This document shows positions 2,639 through 13,966 of a DNA stretch of 64,000 nucleotides, piece after piece. The notes under the pieces are model-generated. The model made no database searches. It was not told the DNA's origin and saw nothing but the letters and a program-made list of their open reading frames with translations. Position 1 is the first letter of the stretch; every line of letters starts with the position of its first letter. Source of the DNA: Flavobacterium branchiophilum NBRC 15030 = ATCC 35035 (lineage in GTDB: Bacteria; Bacteroidota; Bacteroidia; Flavobacteriales; Flavobacteriaceae); assembly GCF_002217205.1 (NCBI RefSeq), contig NZ_MUGT01000027.1:11516-75515 (forward strand), given 5' to 3'. Position numbers and translations under genes: made by a program.

Positions 2639-3019
2639 TTAATTTATTATATTGGCTTTTATATACAATACAATAAAAGTTGGCTCAGTATTTGCTTCAA
2701 TAATTACTGATTTTTCAACAATCCCAATATCTCCTTTTTTTGCAACAAAAATAGTTTTTATTTGAGAATTTGTATTTGGTTTGATAATTGTATCACTAAT
2801 GTTTGCTAAAGTGCAACCACAACTTGTTTTTACATTTTTTATTTTTATAATGTCATTAGATAAATTTCTTAAATAAAAAGTGTTTCTAGCGGTATCACCG
2901 ACTTTTATATTTCCCAAATATTTTATTTTCTCTACATCAAATTGTACAATCTTTTCTGTCTTATTTTTGCAAGACAATAAAACAAGTAAAATAATAATAA
3001 ATATGTAATTATTTTTCAT
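2639..3019 (-). CDS. DUF1573 lipoprotein
   Basis: Predicted 126-residue lipoprotein with a hydrophobic leader and lipobox LLSC ending at C17. Residues 30-125 look like the DUF1573 immunoglobulin-like fold: an N-terminal GDTA..TFYLRN segment and the hallmark TSCGCT at 66-70. The role of DUF1573 is not established; in Bacteroidota it often sits beside thioredoxin-like and peptide genes. Its start overlaps the end of the upstream thioredoxin gene by 11 nt, so the two are translationally coupled. It is the last gene of the fulvocin-like locus. Function in the locus (immunity, maturation or surface display) is open. Confidence 0.8.
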   Translation of the reverse strand: MKNNYIFIIILLVLLSCKNKTEKIVQFDVEKIKYLGNIKVGDTARNTFYLRNLSNDIIKIKNVKTSCGCTLANISDTIIKPNTNSQIKTIFVAKKGDIGIVEKSVIIEANTEPTFIVLYIKANIIN

Positions 3020-3848
3020 TTTTAATTAAGTTGTAAATATTATTATAATTTTCATTGTTTTTTATATTTAAACTGCCAAAATATTTTATTTTTCTATCTT
3101 TCCCAACAATTATATAGTTTGGTACACTATTAAAACCTAATTTTGAGAAAATTGATTGGTCGCAATAATAATTTGTGAATGTGAATCCTTTTAAATATTT
3201 TTCGCTAACTAGAACATCGTTCCAAGAGTTATAAATATTAATTGAAATAAATTCAATTTGATTATCATTTTCAAAATCATTTTTAACTTTTTCAAATTTA
3301 GGAAAAGCATCAATACAATTACCACAAGTTATACTCCATAAATCTATAATTAATATTTTATGACCGTTTTGAATATTTACTTTTTTACCAAACTTATTTT
3401 TGATATTCAACTCTGGAAATTCTTTGTTAATATTATCATTTTTATTATAAATAGAGTAGTATAGATTTAACATGTCGCTATAGCAATATATAGATAAAGT
3501 AAAAAAAAACACATAAATTAACAATATGATTTTTTTCAAATGGTTGTATTTATGAAGAAATAACCCTGTTGAAGTAGCAATAACATAAATATAATAACCC
3601 AAAACGCCAGGCATGGCTATGTTAAGATATATACCACAAATTACAGTGAATGATAATATAACGAAGGGAATAAAAATTAAAAACAAACCCAATTTTTTAA
3701 AAGGGTTTGTTTTAATTAAATAATATGTGAAAAATACATTTATAACACCCGTAGTAATAAAATTAGCATATAAACCATGTATTCGACCAATAAAATTAAA
3801 GTAATATAAGACAAGTAATACAATAATAAAAGATAACTTGGGTTTCAT
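3009..3848 (-). CDS. Membrane-anchored TlpA-like thioredoxin
   Basis: I prefer the ATG at 3848 (MKPKLSFIIVLL) over an in-frame ATG 21 nt upstream; this gives 279 residues. The N-terminal half has about five hydrophobic segments. The C-terminal part (from about residue 145) is a thioredoxin fold facing the periplasm. The active site CGNC is at 175-178, preceded by ILIIDLWSIT, and a cis-proline loop SVPNYIIV is near 241-248. It probably handles disulfides of exported proteins. The gene before it encodes a lipoprotein with eight C-terminal cysteines and the gene after it overlaps it, so a dedicated substrate is a reasonable inference. The fused membrane domain resembles no family I can name. Confidence 0.82.
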   Translation of the reverse strand: MKPKLSFIIVLLVLYYFNFIGRIHGLYANFITTGVINVFFTYYLIKTNPFKKLGLFLIFIPFVILSFTVICGIYLNIAMPGVLGYYIYVIATSTGLFLHKYNHLKKIILLIYVFFFTLSIYCYSDMLNLYYSIYNKNDNINKEFPELNIKNKFGKKVNIQNGHKILIIDLWSITCGNCIDAFPKFEKVKNDFENDNQIEFISINIYNSWNDVLVSEKYLKGFTFTNYYCDQSIFSKLGFNSVPNYIIVGKDRKIKYFGSLNIKNNENYNNIYNLIKNEK

Positions 3849-3899
3849 AAATTTTAATTTTAAAAACATTTTGGGTTTTTTAATTTTTTTAACATGTAA

Positions 3900-4532
3900 T
3901 TAGTAGTAAATAAAACATTTACCGTTACAATCAAAAAACATTAGGAATCCACATCCGCCCCAATTCTGTGTAGGTTCACAGTCTGAACGTCTACAAGTTC
4001 CAAGACCAGAACAAGACCAGATAGAACCAATATTACATGTACATTTAGATTTTGGGCCAACAATATTATTTTCTAACACAATTTCTCTAGAAATTATTTG
4101 ATCATTACTTTTATTTGAGAGTGTATAAAAATTATTGTAAATAAATTCTTCAGAAAATACTGCTATTGATTTTTTAAGGAATGTTTTTATATAAACATTT
4201 TTAAAAATCTCTCGATTGTCATTCATAGAATCATTATTAAATAAACTAACACTCAATTGACTTTTTAAATCGTTTAATAAATTCAGTTGCTGTTCTGTTA
4301 GTTTATCATTATGAATAATTTTTGTCAATCTATCATTCCAAATTTTAAATTTATCTTCTTTGCTTAATAAGTTATACATTATTTTTTGTGAAATAATGTT
4401 TTTTTCTTTCAACACTTCGTTTATTTTTGTATTTACTATTTGAGCACTATTTTGAGAATTCGCATTTTCATTATCAGAACACGAAAGAAATGTAAACATG
4501 ATAAAAGCAAATAAAAACATTAATTTTTTCAT
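3900..4532 (-). CDS. Fulvocin C-like bacteriocin precursor lipoprotein
   Basis: 210-residue lipoprotein (lipobox FLSC, C18). Residues 25-160 are a charged helical region. The last 47 residues hold eight cysteines in the order CxC, C, C, C, GCG, C, C. From memory, fulvocin C of Myxococcus fulvus is a 45-residue, four-disulfide bacteriocin with a very similar order (CxC near the start, then GCG and CNG near the end), and Bacteroidota proteins of about 200 residues carry the name 'bacteriocin fulvocin C-related'. That makes a precursor with a C-terminal toxin-like domain the best reading. The thioredoxin gene starts 51 bp downstream. Whether the domain is released, and whether it kills, is unknown. 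Confidence 0.7.
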   Translation of the reverse strand: MKKLMFLFAFIMFTFLSCSDNENANSQNSAQIVNTKINEVLKEKNIISQKIMYNLLSKEDKFKIWNDRLTKIIHNDKLTEQQLNLLNDLKSQLSVSLFNNDSMNDNREIFKNVYIKTFLKKSIAVFSEEFIYNNFYTLSNKSNDQIISREIVLENNIVGPKSKCTCNIGSIWSCSGLGTCRRSDCEPTQNWGGCGFLMFFDCNGKCFIYY

Positions 4533-4661
4533 GATTGTAAAGTTTTACGCCCAGTTATAAAACTTGGGCAAGTTAATAAAAAGATTTTAGTTTAACAAAG
4601 TTTTTTCTCGAGATAATTTGTTGAGGCAAATATCAAATTAACTTTTGGGTAAAAAAACAAC

Positions 4662-4707
4662 TTATACGAAATAAATTATACTTTTAGGAAAAATATTTAT
4701 ACTTTTG
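4662..4707 (+). promoter_or_regulatory. Promoter with a 21-bp-spaced direct repeat before the XRE gene
   Basis: TACTTTTG at 4700-4707 matches the -7 consensus TAnnTTTG, about 25 bp before the XRE start. It is part of a direct repeat TTATACTTTT found at 4676-4685 and 4697-4706, exactly 21 bp apart, with a third partial copy TTATAC at 4662. Two helical turns between copies suits a dimeric repressor, but the repeat could also be a second -7 box. Confidence 0.45.
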
Positions 4708-4731
4708 CGACAATAACAAATTCATTAAACC

Positions 4732-5109
4732 ATGGAAAGTAATATTATAGCTAAAAAAATTAAAGAAATAAGGTTAGAAAAGAAAATATCTGTTGAAGAT
4801 ATTGCAGTAGCTTTGAATATTTCAGCTAATGCCTATCGTAAAATTGAAATGAATTACACTAAACTCACAATTGACAGGTTATATGATATCAGTAAAATAT
4901 TAGAAGTTAGTACTGCACAACTATTGGATATTGCTACCAAAGAGGTTTATAAACAGGAAAACAAAGATAATGCCACGGGGTATTTGCAAAAGATTGAACA
5001 TTTTTATCATGAAAATAAAGAACAACATGAAAAAATGATAGCTTTATATGAAGCACGACTTAAGGATAAAGATTTGGTTATAGAACAGTTGCTCCAAAAG
5101 CAATCTTAA
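4732..5109 (+). CDS. XRE-family transcriptional regulator
   Basis: 125-residue protein with an N-terminal HTH_3/XRE domain at about 6-64 (IKEIRLEKKISVEDIAVAL, then SANAYRKIE as the recognition region). The C-terminal tail, about 85-125, is predicted to be coiled coil and probably dimerises. It is divergent from the fulvocin-like gene with a 199-bp shared intergenic region, so it likely controls that locus and itself. It resembles the XRE protein at 48393-48746 in architecture: same HTH position and same coiled-coil tail. Confidence 0.85.
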   Translation: MESNIIAKKIKEIRLEKKISVEDIAVALNISANAYRKIEMNYTKLTIDRLYDISKILEVSTAQLLDIATKEVYKQENKDNATGYLQKIEHFYHENKEQHEKMIALYEARLKDKDLVIEQLLQKQS

Positions 5110-5298: not shown

Positions 5299-5649
5299 AT
5301 GGCAGATTTATTGAAATTCGTACAAGACGAATTTGTTACTAAAAAAGATTTTCCAGTGTTTGGAGCTGGAGACACAATCACCGTGTATTATGAAATTAAA
5401 GAGGGTGAAAAAACAAGAACACAGTTTTTTAAAGGTGTTGTAATTCAAAGAAGAGGTTCTGGACACACAGAAACTTTTACGATTCGCAAAATGTCTGGAG
5501 CAATAGGAGTGGAGCGTATTTTTCCAATCAATTTGCCAGCGTTGCAAAAAATTGAAATCAACAAAAAAGGTGCTGTTCGTAGAGCAAGAATTTTCTATTT
5601 TAGAAACCTTACGGGTAAAAAAGCTAAAATTAAAGATAAAAGAAGATAA
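5299..5649 (+). CDS. rplS: 50S ribosomal protein L19
   Basis: L19 lies at the 30S-50S interface of the ribosome. The 116 residues match the family. Typical segments are FPVFGAGDTITV (18-29), FFKGVVIQRRGSG (43-55), GVERIFPINLPAL (69-81) and the basic tail with VRRARIFYFRNLTGKKAKIK. It is monocistronic, with a strong promoter and a terminator at 5730-5758. The usual bacterial neighbours rpsP, rimM and trmD are absent. Confidence 0.97.
   Translation: MADLLKFVQDEFVTKKDFPVFGAGDTITVYYEIKEGEKTRTQFFKGVVIQRRGSGHTETFTIRKMSGAIGVERIFPINLPALQKIEINKKGAVRRARIFYFRNLTGKKAKIKDKRR

Positions 5650-11123: not shown

Positions 11124-13966
<2,843 letters not shown>

Follow-up and report, generated by a model that had tools for sequence, protein, structure and literature searches.

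Does a small cysteine-rich lipoprotein of Flavobacterium branchiophilum NBRC 15030 = ATCC 35035 belong among the bacteriocins, and do the genes beside it serve its disulfides? The gene lies on contig NZ_MUGT01000027.1, in a stretch of 64,000 nucleotides (positions 11,516 to 75,515) that is referred to below as the window. Downstream of it follow genes for a TlpA-like membrane thioredoxin and for a lipoprotein of the DUF1573 family, and a divergent XRE-family regulator gene lies upstream. The reading that we favour, and hold to be probable, is that this cassette encodes a disulfide-rich fulvocin C-related bacteriocin precursor together with dedicated thiol-redox partners; judged from sequence, it would be bacteriocin-like in its working, short of a proven bacteriocin. 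A first-pass annotation had named the four open reading frames (ORFs), all of which lie where it had placed them and on the strands given, and the 11-bp overlap of the TlpA-like and DUF1573 genes (3009-3019) and the divergent orientation of the XRE gene are likewise borne out. The features, in window coordinates, are:

2639..3019, minus strand: DUF1573 lipoprotein, 126 aa (PF07610 DUF1573, 64.4 bits)
2813..2821, minus strand: CGC motif of DUF1573, residues 67-69 (read from the sequence)
3009..3869, minus strand: TlpA-like membrane thioredoxin, 286 aa (three hydrophobic segments in a Kyte-Doolittle scan, then CGNC; Thioredoxin_8, 30.4 bits)
3315..3326, minus strand: CGNC motif of the TlpA-like protein, residues 182-185 (read from the sequence)
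3900..4532, minus strand: predicted fulvocin C-related lipoprotein precursor, 210 aa (NF033852, 100.1 bits; lipobox FLSC18, then SDNEN)
3915..4043, minus strand: eight-cysteine C-terminal module, residues 164-206 (cysteine conservation across the loci over the cut-off)
4479..4532, minus strand: predicted lipoprotein signal peptide, lipobox Cys18 (from the sequence; acidic residues among +2 to +6, resembling a lipoprotein export signal, LES)
4533..4731, no strand: divergent intergenic region between the lipoprotein and XRE genes
4732..5109, plus strand: divergent XRE-family regulator, 125 aa (HTH_3, 43.8 bits; 199 bp from the lipoprotein gene)

The precursor family and fulvocin C

The lipoprotein matches the NCBIfam model NF033852 (fulvocin_rel, 'bacteriocin fulvocin C-related protein'), scoring 100.1 bits against a cut-off of 35, over profile positions 1-150 of 150; a Pfam scan found no family over its cut-off. 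The match covers prodomain and cysteine tail alike, and on this basis the lipoprotein is assigned to the family. Its tail carries KCTC...GGCG...CNGKC, and with it the CxC, GCG and CNG signature of NF033852, and its N-terminus (minus strand, from 4532) reads MKKLMFLFAFIMFTFLSC, a lipoprotein signal with the lipobox FLSC18. The model, whose name is also borne by records from Bacteroides and Streptomyces, describes the precursor alone; the present analysis adds redox partner genes, a thioredoxin-like fusion and six-cysteine forms.

By sample, genomes with a match over the cut-off number 1 of 60 among close relatives (the window's own genome), 3 of 395 in the phylum, 8 of 395 in the class, 12 of 397 in the family and 11 of 299 in the genus, as well as 1 of 92 from the family of genome G342 and 3 of 12 from that of G923. 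Presence is patchy: five broad samples have it in 0.8-3.7% of their genomes, and one small family in 3 of 12. The samples overlap, and the close-relative, phylum, family, class and genus samples include the window's own genome; pooled, they hold 30 distinct loci (L numbers below) over the cut-off, in 29 genomes of the window's phylum. None of 14 control genomes matched NF033852 over the cut-off. Among the 30, one precursor is split by a stop (L032), three lack the N-terminal part in the chosen ORF (L035, L067, L073), two have uncertain starts (L030, L069) and one, just over the cut-off at 36.9 bits, has an atypical tail (L076). Seven copies below the cut-off lie outside the 30 (L008, L011, two in L036, L037, L038, L054); of these, L054 entered the 27-tail profile and the 31-row cysteine test described below. 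Viral contigs yielded no confirmed relatives with two queries, and phages none with one.

Fulvocin C is a peptide isolated as a bacteriocin. Its source is Myxococcus fulvus (Hirsch 1977; Tsai and Hirsch 1981, both as cited in an excerpt of PMC8708641). The sequence used here was not taken from a database record; it was compared with a profile of 27 eight-cysteine tails (26 loci over the cut-off plus L054). It scored 29.4 bits, which none of 2000 shuffles keeping the cysteine positions reached (maximum 22.0), and 2000 full shuffles gave at most 11.6 bits; the best single tails (L051, L050) pair with it at 46% identity. An alignment above chance, which the first-pass annotation had proposed as a check, is therefore found between this fulvocin C sequence and the family-tail profile. 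The claim that the eight cysteines follow the fulvocin C order stands in part: cysteines 1-7 align in register with the profile, along with the CxC start, GCG and CNG, but the family's last cysteine (CNGxC) is absent from this fulvocin C sequence, which has in its place a different cysteine two residues ahead of CNG. A pattern scan of genome contigs for fulvocin C returned two records, from Ketobacter and Gemmobacter, matched by pattern alone, and a search of PDB sequences with profile A2 of the family gave three matches (E 0.29-0.77) that were judged to be chance.

The lipoprotein does have the eight cysteines claimed for its last 47 residues, at residues 164-206 of 210. Related lipoproteins keep their C-terminal cysteines, in support of a disulfide-rich C-terminal module: 26 of the 30 tails have eight and the remaining four (L071, L072, L073, L076) six, odd counts do not occur, and L054, just under the cut-off, likewise has eight. 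In a rough calculation with the eight losses spread randomly over 31 x 8 sites, only even counts would arise in 8.5e-05 of draws, relatedness being ignored. By eye, L072 lacks C4 and C8 (relative to L075), L076 lacks C6 and C7, and L071 and L073 lack C8 plus one middle cysteine. The paired losses in L072 and L076 suggest that C4-C8 and C6-C7 are bonded in the module. Linkers ahead of the tail are variable and at times glycine-rich, compatible with proteolytic release and no more.

Several relatives depart from this layout. The prodomain is kept in L036 (1959-3276 and 8551-10019), L037 (5602-7163) and L038 (4906-6957), with CxxC-type tails of 4-6 cysteines; a conserved neighbour of ~280 aa stands where TlpA or DUF1573 would be, and in a scan of one copy neither NCBIfam nor Pfam gave a match. 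L054 (4696-9785) encodes a prodomain-less 105-aa peptide with eight cysteines (34.8 bits, cut-off 35), next to a TlpA gene, a DCC1-like thiol oxidoreductase gene (PF04134, 64.2 bits) and ORFs with multiple transmembrane segments. The latter ORFs suggested an SDP-like (HTTM) reading, which was dropped, the DCC1-like gene alone being confirmed. The G022 locus is decayed, with the precursor cut at the cysteine region, a DUF1573 remnant following it and TlpA still adjoining.

Recurrent thiol-redox neighbours

The ORFs of the 30 loci were annotated with home-made profiles. In 20 loci the lipoprotein gene is followed on its own strand by a TlpA-type gene within ~400 bp, and in 14 a DUF1573 gene follows on that strand; both partners are present in eight and at least one in 26. 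TlpA occurs without DUF1573 in 12 loci, and DUF1573 without adjacent TlpA in six (L009, L066, L067, L069, L070, L076), of which L069 sits at the end of its contig, while in L070 a TlpA gene occurs 2.4 kb on. Among ORFs at most 1.5 kb from the lipoprotein gene, 23 of 134 are TlpA and 14 of 134 DUF1573, compared with 2 of 181 and 0 of 181 farther away (Fisher 1e-7 and 4e-6, respectively). In the window genome three places match DUF1573 over the cut-off, and the cassette TlpA profile has four matching places (E<=1e-3), of which one is full length; one place of each kind adjoins the lipoprotein gene. Because such places are few in this genome, the presence of both beside the lipoprotein exceeds chance.

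In a reverse search with the cassette TlpA profile A4, 8 of 299 family genomes had a match at E<=1e-40, all eight with the lipoprotein gene adjoining. The profile seeds came from the same loci and at most eight candidates were scored per genome, so the result speaks for a TlpA subfamily of its own and does not count as independent replication. A Bacteroides finegoldii plasmid provides an independent case: on it, third-party annotation lists DUF1573, fulvocin C-related and TlpA genes consecutively. Together with the 26 loci and the Streptomyces fusion described below, this supports a recurrent association of precursor and thiol-redox genes, whose co-occurrence the first-pass annotation had proposed to check. 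A disulfide-containing bacteriocin co-encoded with thiol oxidoreductases, as in the cassette, is also found in sublancin with BdbA and BdbB; sublancin is a Gram-positive exported glycocin and, unlike the cassette, comes without a lipoprotein or DUF1573.

For DUF1573, display or self-protection had been envisaged. All 14 cassette copies have a CxC motif (13 by script, L027 by eye), and in 11 it is CGC. A list of selenoprotein families includes PF07610, with the motif UGC (PMC13188914, in the part available), and CGC peptides have a redox potential like that of protein disulfide isomerase (PDI) and disulfide-isomerase-like chemistry (excerpt of PMC4316792, citing Woycechowsky and Raines 2003). 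Because the CxC is kept in every cassette copy, a UGC form of the family is listed and CGC peptides have a PDI-like potential, a redox role fits DUF1573 better than display or self-protection. The earlier proposal is weakened further by the lack of DUF1573 in 16 of the 30 loci, 12 of which have TlpA alone. The same findings count against the more specific idea that DUF1573 is the immunity protein, as BcpI is for the Bacteroidales toxin BcpT, and TlpA the sole folding partner. In favour of that idea, DUF1573 is a lipoprotein, is less acidic after its lipid cysteine than the precursors and probably faces the periplasm, like BcpI (PMC9308784, in excerpt); we consider it unlikely. TlpA and DUF1573 seem, moreover, to be interchangeable across loci, which speaks against either as an immunity protein and leaves dedicated redox partners as the role that we prefer for both.

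Regulation by the XRE protein receives narrower support. The gene is divergent in the window, as had been noted, but this arrangement recurs in only 4 of the 30 loci, all in the window's genus (the window, L071, L072, L075), plus the sub-cut-off relative L038; in the window's lineage the XRE protein may control the divergent operon. The sequence TACTTTTG at 4700 on the plus strand fits a Bacteroidota -7 element for the XRE gene, and the minus strand of the intergenic region (4533-4731) has no match to this element. PADLOC gave no match for the precursor, TlpA or DUF1573, and only generic helix-turn-helix-type matches for the XRE protein. The XRE gene precedes rplS (window 5299-5649). Thirty of 40 rplS matches were fetched, and in the 29 genus loci other than the window the 1.5 kb next to rplS is free of cassette genes; several have beside it an ORF that we take to be trmD-like. 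Insertion of the cassette at rplS was considered and set aside, the window neighbourhood differing more widely and hence offering no clean empty site.

Fused thioredoxin-like domains in Streptomyces

Plasmids gave no match for the window protein. A tblastn search of plasmids with the L048 precursor returned four records, three of them from Streptomyces, and a follow-up query with one of these returned 15. Full-length proteins were read from six Streptomyces plasmid records (L117, L118 with two copies, L120, L121, L122, L123); L119 was available as annotation only, and L126 from the prodomain on, with a stop upstream in the stretch read. The seven proteins share one order: an N-domain with CxxC and WxPTL, a hydrophobic segment with R(R/K), a fulvocin-type prodomain and a cysteine-rich tail, which has eight cysteines except in L121, where ten were counted by eye. 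We take the R(R/K)-containing segment to be a Tat-like signal; NCBIfam TAT matches in L122, L124 and L125 are below the cut-off. Against the PDB, 22 of 23 matches of the N-domain profile at E<=1 are thioredoxins (best E 0.0089, a modest value), so the domain is likely to have a thioredoxin-like fold. As N-domain and precursor are fused in one gene, there is good evidence that they work together.

Streptomyces sp. NBC_00012 carries a tandem pair of such genes (L118:4434-6772) that differ at 2 of 813 bases across N-domain and prodomain and at 60 of 135 in the tail; both copies retain the eight cysteines. The pair looks as if the tails had undergone a sharply bounded exchange, as toxin payloads do. 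On Rubrobacter and Thermomicrobium plasmids (L124:3989-5152, L125:4013-5032) the same N-domain is fused to different cysteine-rich tails, and an S8 peptidase gene lies within three genes of each fusion. A likeness of these tails to halocin C8 was considered and dropped, as no NCBIfam or Pfam match over the cut-off was obtained. We put forward, tentatively and with more doubt than confidence, a cross-phylum class of payload-swapping disulfide-rich bacteriocins, in which redox functions would act in trans in the window's phylum (TlpA, CxC-bearing DUF1573, DCC1-like protein) and in cis in Streptomyces (a thioredoxin-like N-domain before a Tat-like signal), with the same fused domain joined to other cysteine-rich tails in Rubrobacter and Thermomicrobium.

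CxxC and CxC proteins next door could also befit an envelope thiol redox sensor or buffer, and TlpA-like proteins are often reductases. The lipoprotein would then be the substrate of TlpA and DUF1573 as its reductases, with no antagonism involved. Even cysteine counts with paired losses point instead to structural bonds, and exchangeable tails are unexpected of a sensor; we find this explanation very improbable, and retain a precursor whose disulfides are structural.

Proposed surface location and mode of action, and a non-toxic alternative

In the window precursor FLSC is followed by SDNEN, near the consensus SDDFE of F. johnsoniae, and in the window DUF1573 the lipid cysteine is followed by KNKTE, without net acidic residues. 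Across loci the precursors are the more acidic after the lipid cysteine: net acidity averages +0.83 in precursors (n=24) versus -0.50 in DUF1573 lipoproteins (n=12; P 0.0036), and acidic residues alone 1.54 versus 1.00 (P 0.039); seven precursor and two DUF1573 rows without a lipobox, including truncated rows and L075, were left out of this comparison. By the lipoprotein export rule (PMC5080379, in excerpt), precursors would tend outward and DUF1573 inward. Lipid anchoring is not a requirement of the family, since L075, which is over the cut-off, has a signal peptide without a lipobox.

A lipidated precursor that puts the toxin on the cell surface had been put forward as a possible contact-dependent mode with no clear description in this family. 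As such it is not new: surface-lipoprotein toxins of Bacteroidota are already known. The BSAPs of Bacteroidales are MACPF proteins of this kind (PMC12853789, in excerpt). BcpT is lipidated and proteolytically cut, its C-terminal part being thought active, and its small downstream lipoprotein BcpI is the immunity protein; at 499 aa, with three cysteines labelled, BcpT is far larger than the cassette precursor (both from the available part of PMC9308784). The cassette lipoprotein resembles these toxins in being a lipidated precursor, and no sequence relation is claimed.

We infer toxicity, cleavage, surface display and the direction of the redox chemistry as follows. The precursor would consist of a signal peptide with lipid anchor and a prodomain, joined by a variable linker to a module of ~45 residues with eight cysteines, homologous to fulvocin C. 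After export by Sec, its disulfides would be formed or reshuffled by two proteins that face the periplasm, the TlpA-like one in the inner membrane and the DUF1573 lipoprotein with its CGC, and the LES-like acidic residues after the lipid cysteine would place it at the cell surface. A protease may then cut the linker and free or expose the folded module, by analogy to BcpT (PMC9308784, in excerpt), and the module may act on competing bacteria.

A number of observations weigh against this scheme. Taken singly, the window tail matches the fulvocin C sequence at E 1.1, so the link runs through the family profile, and no report of activity was found for NF033852 members besides fulvocin C in the available part of PMC8708641. 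Structure prediction without an alignment gave a mean predicted local distance difference test score (pLDDT) of 35.9 for the 193-residue precursor and 54.3 for the 53-residue tail, values too low to inform on fold or bonds. Mean identity over all pairs is 0.24 for non-cysteine tail positions versus 0.26 for the prodomain; the tail does not clearly evolve faster, and tail diversification as a general rule was rejected, which leaves one tandem pair as the signal. A same-strand partner is absent from 4 of the 30 loci (L010, L031, L033, L052), with TlpA divergent and 121 bp away in L010. The Streptomyces N-domain matches the cassette TlpA in ten columns around CxxC (probability 2.4), so the two seem to be different thioredoxin-like families, and because the domain precedes the membrane signal it may be cytoplasmic, unlike TlpA. 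Finally, the sub-cut-off prodomain relatives L036-L038 bear other tails, with no TlpA or DUF1573 nearby, and no neighbour is common to all 30 loci, for which reason no immunity gene can be named.

The last two points would also suit a non-toxic surface protein, such as an adhesin, a protease inhibitor or a signalling peptide, that is disulfide-matured by the same redox genes. So would the partly stable sites, more typical of a resident gene than of a mobile toxin: a flanking gene is common to L026, L027 and L034, and neighbours are shared by L068 and L074 and by L008 and L073. The homology to fulvocin C, a peptide isolated as a bacteriocin, the NF033852 match and the tail replacement in the tandem pair argue the other way, as does the patchy presence in the five broad samples, yet not in the small family with 3 of 12. 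On balance we regard a non-toxic protein as improbable and keep to a bacteriocin precursor with redox partners. Immunity is hinted at only by an ABC ATPase, encoded at most 4 kb away in L010, L035 and L075 (3 of the 30 loci). Two distant loci (L035:4339-5288, L075:3646-4574) share an ABC ATPase and a membrane protein of ~93 aa near the cassette, a pair that could possibly form a self-protection exporter.

In the library searched, there was no paper on the gene context of the NF033852 family, nor one joining DUF1573 with a bacteriocin, and the main text of a survey of ribosomally synthesized and post-translationally modified peptides in Bacteroidales (PMC10352776) mentions neither fulvocin, DUF1573, TlpA nor thioredoxin. 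Fulvocin C was described in 1977-1981 (PMC8708641, in excerpt), and its family has little beyond a database name. A precursor that recurs with redox partners makes this neglected toxin family testable, both for the maker of its bonds and for killing by the tail. If the CGC of DUF1573 is catalytic, a 'domain of unknown function' would gain a function.

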